Positions 1 to 5,224 of a stretch of DNA of 5,224 nt are shown in pieces. The position numbers were made by a program, and so were the translations under genes. The notes beneath the pieces were generated by a model that had not been told where the DNA came from, ran no database searches, and saw only the letters and a list, made by a program, of their open reading frames with translations. Each line of letters begins with the position of its first letter. Position 1 is the first letter of the stretch. The DNA comes from Firmicutes bacterium UBA1535 (GTDB lineage: Bacteria > Bacillota > Clostridia > Tissierellales > Sedimentibacteraceae), in the NCBI GenBank assembly GCA_002323775.1, contig DCPV01000304.1, forward strand, positions 1-5,224. The letters run 5' to 3'.

Positions 1-699
1 TACATTTATAAAATTAGCTATTAATCTATCCAGTTCTAAAAGTTCTTCTTTATTTAAGCACATACATAATGCACGGTTTATTTTTATGCTTTCACCCAAA
101 ATTAATTCAGCAAGCCCTCTTTCTTCTTTAAAGATAGAATTAATTAGATTTTTAATTGTACATAATATTTCTTTTTTAACTTTTTCAAGAATATCAGATT
201 CTGAACATCTAATAAATTTAATGAATCTAATAACTGTTCGTAATTTTCTTAAAAGTATCATGTTTTTTTCAACTATTAATTTCATCAGTGTTACAACGAG
301 ATTATTGACTTGTTTAATATCATCAAAAGTACAATAAAATGCAACATTTGCTACACCTTTTCCTAATTTATCTATTAAGTAACCTAACGAAGATTCTTCT
401 GCCGCTATACTTCCTAAAACAGAATTTAAGTTGTTTAAAAGTTCAAATTGTTTATTGTAATTTAAACATTCAATTCCTTCTTTTTGTATAAAGTCAAGAG
501 TGTCTCTTAATTTATTCTCTAAAATATTGTTTTTCTGTATTATAGTTTTAAAAATTCGTATTATGCTTTGAGTAACGTCAATAAAGCCATAGATAGTTAT
601 GCAAGGATTTATTACATTACATAACAAATTTGCTTGAGCTTCAAGTAATGATGCAAGAGCATATTCTTCATTAGCTACTGATCCAACAATAGAAACAGC
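1..699 (-). repeat. Protein-level tandem repeats, two full units plus a partial third, period about 90 residues
   Basis: The glutamate pairs recur at residues 31, 121 and 212, a period of 90-91. Each full unit carries a Lys-Asn signature about 44-45 residues after the glutamate pair. The DNA copies have diverged, so this shows in the protein and not as near-identical DNA. The third unit is cut by the window edge before its Lys-Asn signature. Confidence 0.85.
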
Positions 700-759
700 A
701 TTACTTGGTATTCCTTCAATAGGAAAATTGATATTATTATTTATATTTGACATAGTCAT
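1..759 (-). CDS. Repeat protein with EExxLA/KNxxLxxKL helical units, cysteine-containing paralogue (3' end cut by window edge)
   Basis: An open frame of 253 codons reads from ATG at 759 to base 1 without a stop, so the C-terminus lies outside the window. Function is unknown. The protein holds two complete units of about 90 residues and part of a third. The acidic signature is at residues 31-32 (NEEYALASLL), 121-122 (AEESSLGYLI) and 212-213 (KEERGLAELI). The basic signature is at 76-77 (QKNNILENKL) and 165-166 (EKNMILLRKL). The units align one-to-one with those of the gene at 901-2022, so the two are paralogues. By analogy a fourth unit of roughly 100 residues should follow. Eight cysteines (47, 53, 98, 143, 185, 200, 232, 234) contrast with none in the paralogue; I see no His or Trp. 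There is no signal peptide or membrane segment. ATG759 is 8 nt from AGGA (768-771); an ATG at 753 matches the paralogue's start context (ATGTCAAATATA) but is 14 nt away. Confidence 0.9.
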   Translation of the reverse strand, partial: MTMSNINNNINFPIEGIPSNAVSIVGSVANEEYALASLLEAQANLLCNVINPCITIYGFIDVTQSIIRIFKTIIQKNNILENKLRDTLDFIQKEGIECLNYNKQFELLNNLNSVLGSIAAEESSLGYLIDKLGKGVANVAFYCTFDDIKQVNNLVVTLMKLIVEKNMILLRKLRTVIRFIKFIRCSESDILEKVKKEILCTIKNLINSIFKEERGLAELILGESIKINRALCMCLNKEELLELDRLIANFINV

Positions 760-760
760 A

Positions 761-773
761 CTCACATTCCTTT
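761..773 (-). promoter_or_regulatory. Ribosome binding site and conserved leader of the 1-759 gene
   Basis: The minus strand reads AAAGGAATGTGAG here, and the same 13 bases stand before the paralogue at 2027-2039. AGGA (768-771) is 8 nt from ATG759, a normal spacing. This favours that ATG over GTG765 (too close) and ATG753 (14 nt). Confidence 0.7.
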
Positions 774-792
774 ATATTTTGTTACATTTTAT

Positions 793-829
793 AAAAAACT
801 AATAGCCTGTATTATATTTTATACAGGCT
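793..829 (-). terminator. Hairpin AGCCTGTAT/ATACAGGCT with nearby T6, terminator or leader attenuator
   Basis: Arms at 804-812 and 821-829 pair perfectly over 9 bp with an 8-nt loop. On the minus strand the hairpin is followed after 5 nt by six T (793-798). It sits between the two repeat-protein genes, past the stronger hairpin at 862-897 and about 32 nt before the Shine-Dalgarno of the 1-759 gene. It could be a second terminator of the upstream gene, or an attenuator in the downstream gene's leader. The CAGGCT/CCTGTA sequence recurs in a hairpin before the paralogue (2050-2072). Confidence 0.5.
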
Positions 830-861
830 GGCTTAATATGTTACATTATATTTTATTAATA

Positions 862-897
862 AGTATAAAAGGCTGATGAATCTGAGCCTTTTATACT
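862..897 (-). terminator. Rho-independent terminator of the 901-2022 gene
   Basis: Arms at 862-874 and 885-897 form a perfect 13-bp stem with a 10-nt loop. The core is AAAAGGCT...AGCCTTTT, the usual A-tract/T-tract intrinsic design, starting three bases after the TAA stop at 901-903. The symmetric A/T tracts would allow it to work in both directions. No long T run follows outside the stem. Confidence 0.72.
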
Positions 898-900
898 GCA

Positions 901-2022
901 TTATAGTGATAGTATGAAATTAATAACTTCTAAATTCTTTTGTTGTAATACCATGTTCTTTAATGTTATTGATTCCAGTAAGGTTGTAGCACTATCATTT
1001 ACAGCAATTAGATTTCCTACGTTACCAGGTGTAATTCCAGCGACAGCATTGATTTTTAATGCTTCAGTACCGATAAGTGTACCGAGTGCAATTTCCTCAT
1101 TGGCAATTGATTGTTGAAGATTAGATAATGTTACAGCAAATATTGCCAATTGTGCAGGAGTAAAGCCTAATGCAAGTAATGCAAGTATCTCCTCAAGCTT
1201 AGCCTCTAAAATCATATTTTTCTGAACTACTATATCTATAACAGATGTGATTGTAGTATTGAATGCTATTAAGCCAGGCACACCTGCTACGGTAGTAGTT
1301 AAAACTATTGCTCTGGCTAATTTAGCTGCTTCAGCTTCAATTAAAACAGCAAGTCCGTTTTCTTCAACAGTTATTGAATTTATTAGAGCATTTATTGCTG
1401 CTATTGTTGCTGCTACCTGTGCTGGGGTTGGAGTTGGGAAAGAAGCTGCATTATTAACTATAAATCTAACAAGCCTTCTCAATATACTTAAAAGCACAAG
1501 ATTTTTTTCTGTTATAACTCTCATAAGTGCTATTACAATTTGGTCAACAAGCTGTAATTGTGCAAAGGTAAGGATTGGCGCTAACAGCCTAACTGCATTT
1601 CCTAATGCTCTAATCAAATTACCTAAAGCATTTTCTGCGTTTGCTATTGCAGCAAAAAGTGCAATTATACTATCTACAAGAGCTGGAGTAATTGTAAAGT
1701 TTTCAGCATCAATATAGTTTAGGGTTTCTGTTAGCTTTGCTTCTAAAACTGTATTTTTCAGTACTACGATTTTCATTGCACGTATAATGCTTCCAGCCAA
1801 AGCTGTAAAATTAGCAAAAGTTAAAGTATCGCCAGTTAATAAAGTTAATTTATCTGCTTCTTCTTGTATTATGGCTGCAAGTCCATTTTCTTCTACAGCA
1901 ATTGAGCCTATTATACTAAATGCAGCTGCTGCATTTAAGCCTGGGACTTGTTGAAGTTCAATGTCATTTTGTACACTATAATCTTTTATATTTTCATTGT
2001 TTATATTAAATATATTTGACAT
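901..2022 (-). CDS. Four-repeat EExxLA/KNxxLxxKL helical protein, alanine-rich, no Cys/His/Trp
   Basis: A complete protein of 373 residues of unknown function. After a polar Asn-rich N-terminus (1-30) come four units of about 90 residues. Glutamate signatures are at 44-45 (VEENGLA), 129-130 (NAENALG), 220-221 (VEENGLA) and 309-310 (NEEIALG); Lys-Asn signatures at 89-90, 173-174, 268-269 and 355-356. Units 1 and 3 resemble each other most, as do 2 and 4. Ala, Ile and Leu dominate and I see no Cys, His or Trp. Helix-rich, amphipathic stretches suggest stacked helical hairpins; no signal peptide or transmembrane segment stands out. From memory, unit 4 resembles a repeat in the C-terminal part of collagen-like spore-surface proteins of Bacillus and Clostridium; this is unverified. 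I chose ATG2022, 11 nt from AGGA, because GTG2031 lies only 2 nt from it and the paralogue shares ATGTCAAATATA. Confidence 0.92.
   Translation of the reverse strand: MSNIFNINNENIKDYSVQNDIELQQVPGLNAAAAFSIIGSIAVEENGLAAIIQEEADKLTLLTGDTLTFANFTALAGSIIRAMKIVVLKNTVLEAKLTETLNYIDAENFTITPALVDSIIALFAAIANAENALGNLIRALGNAVRLLAPILTFAQLQLVDQIVIALMRVITEKNLVLLSILRRLVRFIVNNAASFPTPTPAQVAATIAAINALINSITVEENGLAVLIEAEAAKLARAIVLTTTVAGVPGLIAFNTTITSVIDIVVQKNMILEAKLEEILALLALGFTPAQLAIFAVTLSNLQQSIANEEIALGTLIGTEALKINAVAGITPGNVGNLIAVNDSATTLLESITLKNMVLQQKNLEVINFILSL
904..1929 (-). repeat. Four protein-level tandem repeats arranged as a duplicated two-unit block
   Basis: The units begin near residues 32, 118, 207 and 297 of the protein. 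Units 1 and 3 share VEENGLA and LEAKL; units 2 and 4 share IAN-x-E-x-ALG-x-LI (126-137 and 306-317). The offset between like units is 176-180 residues, twice the single period. This A-B-A'-B' pattern suggests that a two-unit ancestor was duplicated. Confidence 0.85.
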
Positions 2023-2049: not shown

Positions 2050-2072
2050 TACAGGTAAATAATCAGCCTGTA
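2050..2072 (-). promoter_or_regulatory. Leader hairpin TACAGG/CCTGTA upstream of the 901-2022 gene
   Basis: Arms at 2050-2055 and 2067-2072 pair over 6 bp with an 11-nt loop, ending about 12 nt before the Shine-Dalgarno. No T run follows, so it is not a terminator. The minus strand reads TACAGGCTGATTA here and TACAGGCTATTAG in the hairpin before the paralogue, so the element seems shared. It could be a leader structure or an operator-like inverted repeat. I found no convincing promoter next to it. Confidence 0.4.
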
Positions 2073-2461
2073 CAACATCATAATATTCTCATGTCCCTTA
2101 TGTGTGCCATATTATTTATATATAAGTAACCTTTTCTTATAATTAAAAAAGACTATTTTCTTTAAAGTAACATATGGTACTATTTCGCATGTCTGCCTAA
2201 CTTAAAAAATCTTTATGTCATGTGTGATGTAAAGACTTAACTCCCTCATAGTAGCTATCTCTGACGAAATGACCTCAGACTGGGCTAAAATCCTATAAAA
2301 AGTATTTAAAAAAGTCAAAAACAGAATGCTTAATGAAATGAACAACATAAATCGTATAGTATAACTTATAACTGCAACACAAGTGTATCCACAGAGCAAG
2401 AGTAAAAAAGCAACTATTTTTACAATATATAAAAACAACTTTAAGAAAGATACTATAAGAA
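2073..2461. other. Gap of about 390 bases with no supported gene
   Basis: I see no convincing gene here. Its left part must contain the promoter of the 901-2022 gene, but no clear vegetative or sporulation-type -35/-10 pair stands out in the AT-rich DNA. A minus-strand frame at 2202-2438 (78 residues) would encode a hydrophobic two-helix peptide, but it starts with TTG, lacks a good Shine-Dalgarno, and AT-rich DNA often gives hydrophobic frames by chance. The stretch 2215-2300 is less AT-rich than its flanks and could be a decayed gene end. Confidence 0.5.
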
Positions 2462-2495: not shown

Positions 2496-3152
2496 TCATT
2501 TCTTTCCTGTAACTTTCAGCCCAAAAAATTCTTTTTCTACTTTGAAATTCTGAAACTCCGTATTTCGTAAGAGTTCTGTCATTTCATTTACTGTATAAGC
2601 CGCATGCAGTGAGCTCATAAAACCCGGTCTGATTTCTTTCGGCTTTGTAGAAGCATAAATCATTTTTACAATCAATGGGTTGACATCCCTACGCATATCG
2701 GAAATGCAGAAGATTCCTCCCGGTTTCAAAGTACGGTAAATCTCGTTGAGAACTTTTACAGGCTTCTCCCATTCATGTATAGAGCCGTTAGAGAATATCC
2801 CGTCAAAGCTTCCATCCTCAAACGGCATCTCCAGAGCATTACCGTTTACATACCGCACTTTATCAGAAAATCCATAATCCTCTGCGTTCCTCTTTGCTAT
2901 CCGTATCATCGTATTGCTGATTTCCAGTGCTGTCAATCCGGCGTTCTGTGTCTTTTTCAGCCATTCTAGTCCAATCAATCCCGGTCCGGGACCGATTTCA
3001 AGTACTGTTCCTTTTGTAATTCCCTCTGCAATAAAGCTGTCCACATTGTTCCAGCCCTTGTCACGCATGACCTTTGCAAACTCATTAAAAATTTCCACAT
3101 CCAGCTCACCCTGAATACCCTCGTTCGTTTCAATCACTCTTTGCTTTACCAT
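2496..3152 (-). CDS. Class I SAM-dependent methyltransferase, operon partner of PadR
   Basis: A cytoplasmic protein of 218 residues that should transfer a methyl group from S-adenosylmethionine; the acceptor cannot be read from sequence. A Rossmann-type methyltransferase core is clear: motif I LEIGPGPG (51-58), the acidic residue ending strand 2 in ALEIS (75-79, E77), GNALEMPF (104-111), the strand-4 region DGSFDGIFSNGSIHEW (113-128) and LKPGG (142-146). This fits the Methyltransf_11/25-like small-molecule group; UbiE-like or resistance roles are only guesses. ATG3152 is chosen because AAGGAGG lies 6 nt upstream; a longer frame to 3197 would begin inside the upstream gene without such a site. 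The Shine-Dalgarno overlaps the stop of the PadR gene, so the two are co-transcribed and probably translationally coupled. G+C is visibly higher than in the repeat genes to the left. Confidence 0.93.
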   Translation of the reverse strand: MVKQRVIETNEGIQGELDVEIFNEFAKVMRDKGWNNVDSFIAEGITKGTVLEIGPGPGLIGLEWLKKTQNAGLTALEISNTMIRIAKRNAEDYGFSDKVRYVNGNALEMPFEDGSFDGIFSNGSIHEWEKPVKVLNEIYRTLKPGGIFCISDMRRDVNPLIVKMIYASTKPKEIRPGFMSSLHAAYTVNEMTELLRNTEFQNFKVEKEFFGLKVTGKK

Positions 3153-3158
3153 AAAAAA

Positions 3159-3164
3159 CCTCCT
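3159..3164 (-). promoter_or_regulatory. Shine-Dalgarno of the methyltransferase, overlapping the PadR stop codon
   Basis: AGGAGG on the minus strand lies 6 nt before ATG3152. Its first base is also the last base of the PadR gene's TAA (3164-3166). This fixes the methyltransferase start and suggests translational coupling of the pair. Confidence 0.88.
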
Positions 3165-3691
3165 TACTTCATCAATACAATTGCCTTCTGCGCCCATTCC
3201 AGTTCCACTTTATAATGCAGCTCATGGTGCAGGAAGATTACTTCCGCCGAGCTTTTCATTTCATCCGGAATAAACTGGAAAGACTCTATTTTATGTTTTT
3301 CAATAATAGAAATCTGAGCTTTTAACTGCTCTGCATATTGCTTAAGATGCTCCACTAAATCTTTCTTAGCTATGTTGTCAGAAAAATAGAACATAGCATC
3401 AGCCTCGAACACCGGGTGGTATTCCATATGCAGCAAAGCTTTCAGTCCATCTGAAAACTTTTCCCTGCCCTTGTCTGTCACGCTGTAAACTGTCTTTTCT
3501 AAACGATTGCTTTCATTGTCTTGAACAGCATTAAGTAGTCCATCCTTCTGCATTTTATCCAGATGATAGTAAATCAGCGACAGCTTAATCTGCGTGAAGT
3601 CAGATAAATTATCTGATATCAGCTTTTTAATCTGATATCCATGCTGTGGACCAAACCTAAGCAGCATCCCAAGAATGTAAATCGGAACCAT
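3164..3691 (-). CDS. PadR-family transcriptional repressor
   Basis: A protein of 175 residues with the PadR layout. The N-terminal winged helix-turn-helix spans about 4-80: ILGML (6-10), HGYQIKKLI (17-25), IYYHLDKMQKDGLL (40-53), and the wing and strand KTVYSVTDKGREKF (66-79). A helical C-terminal dimerisation region covers about 95-175 (DLVEHLKQYAEQLKAQ and later helices), typical of the longer PadR subfamily. Such proteins usually bind dyad operators as dimers and release DNA on binding a small aromatic or drug-like ligand. It is first in a two-gene operon with the methyltransferase at 2496-3152, its stop overlapping that gene's ribosome site. A large palindrome overlapping the promoter points to autorepression. 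ATG3691 is chosen for the GGAGG 5 nt upstream; the TTG at 3703 overlaps that site. The inducing ligand is unknown. Confidence 0.94.
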   Translation of the reverse strand: MVPIYILGMLLRFGPQHGYQIKKLISDNLSDFTQIKLSLIYYHLDKMQKDGLLNAVQDNESNRLEKTVYSVTDKGREKFSDGLKALLHMEYHPVFEADAMFYFSDNIAKKDLVEHLKQYAEQLKAQISIIEKHKIESFQFIPDEMKSSAEVIFLHHELHYKVELEWAQKAIVLMK

Positions 3692-3705
3692 AAAAACCTC
3701 CAAAT

Positions 3706-3754
3706 AAATAGTCAGTACTGAGTATACTTTTATTATACTCAGTACTGACTATTT
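3706..3754. promoter_or_regulatory. Large palindromic operator, probable PadR binding site
   Basis: Two perfectly complementary 21-base arms (3706-3726 and 3734-3754) flank a 7-base centre. Each arm contains the self-palindrome TCAGTACTGA (3712-3721 and 3739-3748), so there are two identical dimer-size sites 27 bp apart, centre to centre. One lies between the -35 and -10 elements and the other just past the expected transcription start. This placement fits autorepression by the adjacent PadR protein. The palindrome is seen directly; PadR as the binder is inference. Confidence 0.82.
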
Positions 3755-3760
3755 TGTCAA
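3732..3760 (-). promoter_or_regulatory. Consensus vegetative promoter of the PadR-methyltransferase operon
   Basis: On the minus strand TTGACA (3755-3760) and TATAAT (3732-3737) are exact consensus hexamers separated by exactly 17 bases. Transcription should start near 3725, leaving a short leader before the GGAGG and ATG3691. Such a strong promoter implies tight repression, which the overlapping palindrome could provide. Confidence 0.92.
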
Positions 3761-3901
3761 TAGCTAATCACATATATTTTTTTATCGCATAGGTGTGCGG
3801 ATTACATGCTTGCACTGCAATTTCGATAAGAGAAGATATTAAAAAATTATCAACAATAATAACGATGAAAATTTTAGAGCTATCGGAGCTTAACATAAGC
3901 T

Positions 3902-4600
3902 TTATTTCTTAGAATCGAGAACAAACAAGGAGGCATCATGCCCCATAAATATTTTACTTCCATGATAAAAGGTTTTAGATTGAATATCCTTGTATACTAT
4001 TTTTGTCATAAGGTTAGTTAATTCTCTCTGATTAAATCCGTTATGAACTATGTCTGAAGTTATTTTTTCGTTTTTATCAAAGTCCACAATTAATAAATGT
4101 CCATTTTCGTTTAGCACCTCATATAGTCTTGATAGCAGCAATTCTATATCATTAATATGCAGCAAAACCTGAGCCATAAAAATATAATCAGCTCGTAAAT
4201 CTAAAAGACTATCCTTTTCAAAGTCAAAGCATAATGCAGAGGCATTCTGTATATTAGACACAGAAATTTTCTGCTTTATCTGATTAATCATGTTTTGCGA
4301 TGAATCCATAAAAAGTATAGAATTAAAATCATTTAACAAATCCATTCCAACAAGCCCAGTTCCACAACCAAAATCAACAGCATTCTTACCTTTTGTATCA
4401 ATTAAATACTCACGTATAGCATTTGAGGATTTATTTGCAATTTGAATTCTTTCAGCAGTATCATATATATGAGCTATCATTTCAAACTTATCTGTATTTC
4501 CCATTATTATCACTCCAATCTTAAACTCGTCACTTTCTATTCTTTGTAAATCTATGAATACTATGTCTATTTCTTTCTTATTTACTGTAAACTTAATCAT
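3902..4600 (-). CDS. Class I SAM-dependent methyltransferase, stand-alone
   Basis: A cytoplasmic methyltransferase of 232 residues, or 200 from the internal start. Core motifs (numbered from ATG4600): FEMIAHIYDTAERIQIA (39-55), the usual N-terminal helix of this group; motif I VDFGCGTGLVG (75-85); the acidic end of strand 2 at D99 (LFMDSS); CFDFEKD (124-130); the AQVLLHI strand-4 region (143-149); and NENGHLLIVDFDK (164-176). The acceptor is unknown. It is not closely similar to the 2496-3152 methyltransferase outside the fold motifs. ATG4600 has AGGAG at 5 nt and sits a short leader from a plausible promoter. ATG4504 (MGNTDKFE) has GGAG at 8 nt and matches where I would expect family members to begin, so the first 32 residues may be an extension or untranslated. 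No strong terminator follows; only a 6-bp hairpin at 3887-3901. G+C is about 30%, below the adjoining PadR operon. Confidence 0.9.
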   Translation of the reverse strand: MIKFTVNKKEIDIVFIDLQRIESDEFKIGVIIMGNTDKFEMIAHIYDTAERIQIANKSSNAIREYLIDTKGKNAVDFGCGTGLVGMDLLNDFNSILFMDSSQNMINQIKQKISVSNIQNASALCFDFEKDSLLDLRADYIFMAQVLLHINDIELLLSRLYEVLNENGHLLIVDFDKNEKITSDIVHNGFNQRELTNLMTKIVYKDIQSKTFYHGSKIFMGHDASLFVLDSKK

Positions 4601-4637
4601 AAATTCTCCTGCATCGATATTGAAGAATATGATTTTG

Positions 4638-4667
4638 CTTATATTTTATCTAACATTCATATATCAA
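4638..4667 (-). promoter_or_regulatory. Probable promoter of the 3902-4600 methyltransferase
   Basis: The minus strand has TTGATA (4662-4667) and TATAAG (4638-4643) with an 18-base spacer, or ATATAA with 17. Transcription would begin near 4630, about 30 nt before ATG4600 and its AGGAG. The region is AT-rich, so chance matches are possible. Confidence 0.5.
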
Positions 4668-4831
4668 CATAATCGTTAAATAAATCAATTTTAAATATTA
4701 TACTATTTATTTTATAATTTATCAAACAGATATTTTCGATAATTAACTTTTGATACACAAATAATATAATAAATTTAAGGATAACAAAACTGTAAGCTCA
4801 TATAGTTAGCATGACCCATACTTAAATAAAA

Positions 4832-4896: not shown

Positions 4897-5224
4897 TTAT
4901 ACAGTAATATTCGCTCGTCTTTTTCTCAAGCTGTTAAATTCTTTCTTAACCATTAGCATGGTCCATATGACAATTACTGCATCAATTGCAAGAGAGCCGT
5001 AATACACCCCTCCCACACCTATCACTCTTGGCAGAATCATCATCACAGGTATGTAAAACACAAACTGTCTTGCCATACCGATAATCATGGCTGGCTTGCC
5101 CTTATCGACAGCCGGAAATAATGTCATTGCCATAAAAATAAATGATAACGCAGGCAATATTGCCATATATATACGAAAATACAAGAATTGTGGGGCAGAA
5201 AAAGCCTGTTCCTTCAGCATCATG
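4897..5224 (-). CDS. MATE-family multidrug/Na+ (H+) antiporter, C-terminal part (5' end cut by window edge)
   Basis: The visible 108 residues form the C-terminus of a polytopic inner-membrane transporter. Three hydrophobic helices are present, roughly 15-38, 46-66 and 69-92 counting from the ATG at 5223. They are followed by a basic cytoplasmic tail (KKEFNSLRKRR). The pattern PAVDKGKPAMIIGMARQ, then FYIPVMMILP and GVGGVYYGSLAID, is typical of the last three helices (10-12) of MATE efflux proteins, which export cationic drugs or metabolites in exchange for Na+ or H+. A full protein would be about 450 residues, so the Met at 5223 is almost certainly internal and the frame continues past the edge. 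The stop is TAA at 4897-4899 and a terminator follows at 4832-4865. G+C is noticeably higher than in the neighbouring intergenic DNA. Substrate is unknown; a flippase relative of the same superfamily is a less likely alternative. Confidence 0.87.
   Translation of the reverse strand, partial: MMLKEQAFSAPQFLYFRIYMAILPALSFIFMAMTLFPAVDKGKPAMIIGMARQFVFYIPVMMILPRVIGVGGVYYGSLAIDAVIVIWTMLMVKKEFNSLRKRRANITV

Follow-up and report, generated by a model that had tools for sequence, protein, structure and literature searches.

Two Adjacent Genes Encode Tandem Units Related to a Spore-Fiber Subunit

Two adjacent genes at one end of a 5,224-nucleotide stretch of Firmicutes bacterium UBA1535 DNA (contig DCPV01000304.1, hereafter the window) encode proteins composed largely of a tandem repeat, which raises the question of what such proteins might build. 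A preliminary description of the locus had proposed structural parts of the spore surface or of another self-assembling layer. We find that the repeat unit is related to A-ENA, the subunit of a fiber deposited as PDB 9IHH, and we consider it reasonably probable (roughly 0.6) that gene 1 encodes a pre-joined block of four fiber subunits, while its Cys-rich paralogue, gene 2, likely provides cross-links or an anchor for the assembly. The kinship to a fiber subunit supports the proposed self-assembling role at the spore surface, whereas polymerization, spore location, and cross-linking are features that we infer.

Gene 1 and gene 2 are arranged head to tail on the minus strand, and direct reading of the sequence places AAAGGA-like ribosome sites immediately 5' of both. 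Units were located with an iterated unit profile (Table 1), which detected four of them in gene 1; gene 2 has at least three. Because the window cuts gene 2, its full four-unit length is known only from relatives. The units are spaced 85-91 residues apart, and an acidic signature is separated from a Lys-Asn signature by 44-48 residues, with unit 2 of gene 1 carrying AEN in place of the EE of the other units. In a leave-one-out analysis, the profile of any three gene 1 units scored the fourth at 52.5, 26.8, 46.0, and 39.8 bits, while the best scores among 1000 shuffles per gene 1 unit were 10.1-15.0 bits, with none of the 1000 reaching the observed score. The unit profile, the leave-one-out analysis, and the shuffles together confirm that the two adjacent genes encode repeat proteins, as had been described.

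The 9IHH entry, entitled "Ex vivo spore-silk A-ENA fibers", contains 29 chains of 101 amino acids (aa). Its chain A (9ihh_A) was matched by gene 1 at E 8e-7 (phmmer), by gene 2 at E 0.0072, and by a 24-row profile at E 1.1e-12, while a single-unit clostridial relative matched it across 97 of its 101 residues at E 4.6e-27. Judged from these sequence matches, the unit is related to the A-ENA spore-fiber subunit. The N-terminal PxIP leader of the ~100-aa A-ENA is present in 9IHH and in most of 12 aligned single-unit relatives but is absent from gene 1. Because of its four units in 373 aa and its different N-terminus, we regard gene 1 as a multi-unit variant rather than a canonical A-ENA. The novelty claimed in the preliminary description is not supported for the unit itself, which already has a Pfam label and a single-unit relative with a solved fiber structure. 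This precomputed label, PF26595.1, is present on every relative listed, and the family may be called A_ENA.

Searched directly, gene 1 and gene 2 matched no Pfam family at E up to 10, which includes the F-ENA (DUF4183) and S-/L-ENA domains, and Pfam likewise detected neither BclA-type collagen repeats nor BclA_C in either gene. No family was obtained from NCBIfam or PHROGs, with rows at E 0.036 or worse disregarded. A histidine kinase (5idj) was considered as a relative and rejected as a chance match (E 0.6 with phmmer, 0.071 with the profile). A plasmid or phage origin of gene 1 was also rejected, with no match at E 0.001 among 72,556 plasmid and 50,697 phage records. Among PMC open papers, a scope that excludes bioRxiv preprints, we found none describing A-ENA or PF26595.

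Predicted Structure of the Four-Unit Protein

The AlphaFold model of gene 1 contains eight helices arranged as four helical hairpins (mean predicted local distance difference test score [pLDDT] 90.6, predicted template modeling score [pTM] 0.87). Its alignment comprised the window gene 1 and 23 of the 65 proteins found in the protein search. Each unit is thus predicted to form an antiparallel helical hairpin, with the four hairpins stacked into a single array. A single-unit model had a pLDDT of 82.0 and a pTM of 0.59. With unit 3 alone, 9ihh_A was the top-ranked Foldseek match (template modeling [TM] scores 0.69/0.64, root-mean-square deviation 2.6, 35% identity, probability 0.99), albeit at a weak E of 0.15, while it was not among the best 50 VIA-align matches listed for the same unit. 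For the whole four-unit model, 9ihh was among neither the best 50 Foldseek nor the best 50 VIA matches listed. Since sequence homology carries the claim of kinship, this weak fold match leaves the odds of our interpretation unaffected. A likeness to pore-forming toxins (AhlB and SmhB chains) was rejected, as Foldseek gave TM scores of 0.17 or less and long helices were the only feature in common.

Relatives of the Gene Pair and the History of the Four-Unit Form

A protein search with gene 1 identified 65 relatives. The pair in Sedimentibacter saalensis (L001) has the same layout, with proteins of 374 and 390 aa that each contain four units by the unit profile; the gene 2 counterpart is located at L001 7248-8420. 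In each of the four relatives that were read (L001, L002, L003, and G018/L024), gene 2 comes after gene 1. The eight unit matches of G018 are divided between two frames, and their order agrees with that of the pair. Comparison with S. saalensis yielded nonsynonymous/synonymous divergence (dN/dS) values of 0.098/0.30 for gene 1 and 0.107/0.27 for the visible part of gene 2. We assembled a set of 123 proteins, consisting of P0001-P0119 plus the gene pairs of the window and of S. saalensis (P0011 is identical to S. saalensis gene 1). Four units are present in 117 of the 123, which should not be read as a prevalence because the searches covered only 0.55-1.75 times the query length and therefore favor four-unit proteins.

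We built a tree from 89 units (81 columns), of which 62 belong to multi-unit proteins and 27 to single-unit proteins. Units of gene 1, of gene 2, and of the Neobacillus and B. coreaensis four-unit proteins clustered according to their position in the chain, whereas the single-unit relatives formed a group of their own. The five labels required 6 changes on the tree, compared to a mean of 52.4 after shuffling. Support was 86-91 for the unit groups (with the Niallia rows apart) and 92 for the single-unit group, all short of the 95 at which the tool awards its star. Divergence is greatest in unit 4 of gene 2, which has an E of 2.8e-4 in G002 and long tree branches. Because the units cluster by position, a single four-unit ancestor most likely existed before gene 1 and gene 2 split, and it is most likely also older than the separation from the Bacillaceae forms, whether these arose by descent or by transfer. 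Both the unit-by-unit correspondence between the genes and the greater age of the multi-repeat form relative to the gene duplication, as proposed previously, are therefore supported by the tree. A Niallia oryzisoli protein (P0119) has three units, all of which fall outside the four-unit groups, and it may have originated separately as an independent fusion.

Cysteine Content Distinguishes the Two Paralogues

The two paralogues differ in their cysteine content. Among proteins of at least 340 aa, Cys is absent from 44 of 59 gene-1 proteins and occurs once in a further 11, with the remaining four having 2, 2, 4, and 8 (the last, P0054, looks like a chimaera), whereas all 49 gene-2 proteins contain 14-23. 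These counts omit nine of the 123 proteins, whose scores assign them to neither gene, as well as all proteins shorter than 340 aa, including the gene 2 product of the window. Every one of the four units in S. saalensis gene 2 carries 1-3 Cys within unit positions 29-39, which correspond to the helix-to-helix turn in the gene 1 model. Given this abundance and placement of Cys, in contrast to gene 1, gene 2 likely serves to cross-link or anchor the assembly.

Single-Unit Relatives and Collagen Fusions

Most of the 12 aligned single-unit relatives begin with MS-P-IP. Of 41 frames, counting cut pieces, 40 have a unit that starts between residues 11 and 33, and the remaining one is a false match. 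Gly-X-Y repeats were present in eight rows, which correspond to six genes by eye, as two rows are cut pieces. The preliminary description had placed such units at the C-termini of collagen-like proteins, but the opposite arrangement was found: in all eight rows, the unit is near the N-terminus and precedes the repeats. Similarly, Pfam placed collagen repeats and BclA_C after the unit in three of six single-unit proteins. The four pair-bearing genomes yielded no unit-collagen fusion, and among them collagen repeats as such were clear only in G001.

In B. velezensis pDMB05-1 (L058, filed as a plasmid), a single-unit gene, a gene for an unknown 154-aa protein, a glycosyltransferase gene, and a unit-collagen gene occur together at 149420-157689, making this cluster a candidate A-ENA locus within a genus that is well studied in the laboratory. 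Some genomes of the phylum sample, such as L033 (G030) and G202, have four to six single-unit genes, several of them in a row. With several such genes per genome, multiple A-ENA-like subunits may co-assemble.

Distribution of the Units and the Link to Sporulation

Units occur in 5 of the 25 genomes from the genus to which S. saalensis belongs, and the same five were recovered with the single-unit profile. Four have the four-unit pair (eight matches each), while G010 has three single-unit genes and is the sole single-unit carrier. Mutual exclusion of the two forms was considered and dismissed, since the lack of any genome with both among the 25 is at chance level with four and one carriers. At the level of the order, 8 of 249 genomes gave a match, one of which (G489, E 2.6e-4) was taken as false because it lies at residue 174 of a chemoreceptor-like protein. 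In a phylum sample of 299 genomes, 22 matched the multi-unit profile and 26 the single-unit profile, and by the listed positions S. saalensis was the only one in which several units share a frame.

PMC13064008 characterizes the genus as spore-forming. As a single sporulation marker we used the ATPase SpoIVA, the profile of which was above cut-off in one of 14 controls, either B. subtilis or Thermotoga maritima, between which the output does not distinguish. SpoIVA was detected in all five unit-bearing genomes of the genus and in 23 of its 25 genomes overall. Across the phylum sample, SpoIVA was detected in 25 of the 26 genomes with units by the single-unit profile, compared to 225 of the 273 others (Fisher p 0.09), and the multi-unit profile gave 21 of 22 compared to 229 of 277 (p 0.14). 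The one unit-bearing exception without SpoIVA is G102. The association is not significant because 225 of the 273 other genomes carry the marker too. Nonetheless, a presence in many non-sporulating lineages, which had been named as a reason to abandon the spore link, did not emerge in the one phylum searched, given the 25 of 26 genomes with SpoIVA. Overall, the distribution of SpoIVA is consistent with a spore link without proving it.

Upstream Motifs, Transcripts, and Neighboring Genes

We aligned the upstream regions of gene 1 and gene 2 over five loci. An AC-N16-NATANNNT pattern is located ~77-107 bases before the start of all 10 genes, compared to an expectation of 0.06-0.28 each under a first-order model, although the pattern was chosen after the alignments had been seen and the five loci are related. 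A middle form of the pattern, with [ACT]ATANNNTA, precedes all five gene 2s and one of the five gene 1s, while the strict SigK form, AC-N16/17-CATANNNTA, was found in none of the 10 upstream regions. For C. difficile, PMC3789822 describes SigK promoters as having a -35 AC and a -10 in common with SigE. A fold of positions 845-906 had an energy of -17.6 kcal/mol (z -6.16), and none of 200 shuffles was as good. Because of this stable hairpin after gene 1, the two genes may be separate transcripts. Neither protein has a strongly hydrophobic start by a crude check (maximum mean hydropathy of any 15-residue span within residues 1-30 of -0.31 for gene 1 and 1.07 for gene 2), which fits release by mother-cell lysis. 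We also observed TACAGG/CCTGTA inverted repeats upstream of both genes (window 2050-2072 and 806-827), with the same repeats in L001 and L003. The order is TACAGG-N-CCTGTA before gene 1 and the opposite, CCTGTA-N-TACAGG, before gene 2, where the repeat overlaps the promoter-like motif. A regulator site or a 5' hairpin are possible explanations.

Table 1. Positions of the gene pair, its units, and putative expression signals in the window.
Feature	Position	Strand	Details
Gene 1, four A-ENA-like units, 0 Cys	904..2022	-	373 aa, ATG at 2022; unit profile
Gene 1 unit 1, residues 32-104	1711..1929	-	Unit profile; model helices 31-60, 69-106
Gene 1 unit 2, residues 116-188	1459..1677	-	Unit profile; model helices 113-150, 153-190
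Gene 1 unit 3, residues 207-283	1174..1404	-	Unit profile; model helices 200-241, 245-283
Gene 1 unit 4, residues 297-370	913..1134	-	Unit profile; model helices 289-330, 335-372
Gene 2, Cys-rich paralogue	1..759	-	ATG at 759, off left edge; visible part 253 aa with 8 Cys
Gene 2 unit 1, residues 19-91	487..705	-	Unit profile
Gene 2 unit 2, residues 108-180	220..438	-	Unit profile
Gene 2 unit 3, residues 199-253, cut by window edge	1..165	-	Unit profile
Promoter-like AC-N16-AATATTAT 5' of gene 1	2080..2105	-	Predicted SigK/SigE-like; relaxed pattern in 5/5 loci
Promoter-like AC-N16-TATAAAATA 5' of gene 2	815..841	-	Predicted SigK/SigE-like; pattern in 5/5 loci
Hairpin 3' of gene 1, possible terminator	863..896	-	Predicted

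Elsewhere in the window, positions 2496-4600 encode two methyltransferases with a PadR-type regulator between them, none of which is beside the pair in L001-L003, and a 108-aa frame at 4897-5223, likely a putative membrane protein fragment, runs off the window. In S. saalensis, the sporulation gene yunB (L001 11362-11997, minus strand) is ~3 kb from the pair, perhaps by chance, because other genes intervene. In L003, two uncharacterized Cys-rich proteins adjoin the pair (4292-4762 and 4904-5692, minus strand). At E 0.1 neither Pfam nor NCBIfam matched them; they could be spore-surface parts.

Models for the Function of the Gene Pair

In the mechanism that we propose, both proteins would be made in the sporulating mother cell, as suggested by the late-sigma-like promoters and, on crude hydropathy, the lack of an obvious signal peptide, and they would be freed when the mother cell lyses. 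Assembly would proceed via hairpin-to-hairpin contacts, like those between separate A-ENA subunits. The gene 2 protein, with its Cys near each hairpin tip in the S. saalensis form, would create disulfides under oxidizing conditions, and these would fix the fiber or layer to the spore. A bolder version, which we offer only tentatively, views the four fused subunits as a natural, covalent protofilament segment that forms an end-to-end polymer and is stapled by its twin through tip disulfides, such that the pair entirely replaces the A-ENA fiber of single subunits, together with its collagen tip, in these Sedimentibacter lineages.

Rather than a free fiber, the four-unit proteins might tile as slabs into a flat coat or exosporium layer that gene 2 stitches with disulfides. 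We consider this unlikely, as the only relative found to have a solved assembly (9IHH) is a fiber, and the helical-array matches may, as the tool cautions, reflect no more than a common arrangement. Less likely still, the proteins could be cytoplasmic or cell-surface helical-repeat scaffolds that reuse the A-ENA unit and have no role in the spore. The 20 of 25 genus genomes devoid of units and the non-significant SpoIVA enrichment would agree with such scaffolds, as would the nearest window neighbors, which include no known spore gene. However, neighbors vary between loci and hence say little, yunB being nearby in S. saalensis, whereas the closest characterized relative is a spore fiber and both genes have conserved late-sigma-like upstream motifs, at least in relaxed form. 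Finally, Leu, Ala, and Ile are abundant in the proteins of gene 1 (15.0, 13.1, and 10.5%, respectively), and such a composition can yield false helical matches. Even so, we assign almost no weight to chance, low complexity in a helical pattern, or an assembly artifact as the source of the repeat, given the failure of every shuffle to reach any unit score, the 65 relatives, the tandem order in L001, L002, L003, and L024, and the excess of dS over dN.

If the pair does encode a pre-joined fiber block and its Cys-rich partner, it would illustrate the conversion of a one-subunit polymer into a polyprotein and provide a compact two-gene material. The unit may also join fiber and tip in many Firmicutes, since it precedes collagen and BclA_C in some relatives. 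Spore appendages of B. cereus are noted for extraordinary resilience in PMC8619143.

Comparison with Known Systems

Gene 1 shares a homologous unit with the A-ENA of 9IHH, which is named as coming from ex vivo spore fibers. A-ENA has one unit per chain and an N-terminal MGMPTIP leader, whereas gene 1 lacks the leader, joins four units in a single chain, and is accompanied by a Cys-rich paralogue. In plan, the F-ENA system of Bacillus thuringiensis works alike: according to PMC11952670, a small subunit polymerizes, while collagen-like proteins anchor the fiber or make up its tip with a C1q-like end, and the fiber domain is located at the C-terminus of the collagen-like anchor. Its own features, a DUF4183 subunit and a beta-barrel neck, set it apart. 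The unit-collagen-BclA_C proteins of Clostridia and the unit-collagen gene of B. velezensis pDMB05-1 are not multi-unit but carry one unit each, with the unit first and the collagen after it. The former resemble the appendage proteins of that same account (PMC11952670), which have a collagen stalk and a C1q-like end. By analogy, these could be adaptor or tip proteins. Neobacillus niacini and Bacillus coreaensis have proteins (P0065 and P0117, respectively) that, like gene 1, contain four units in the same positional order and no Cys; P0065 shows 37% identity across 93% of gene 1, and P0117 is 82% identical to P0065.
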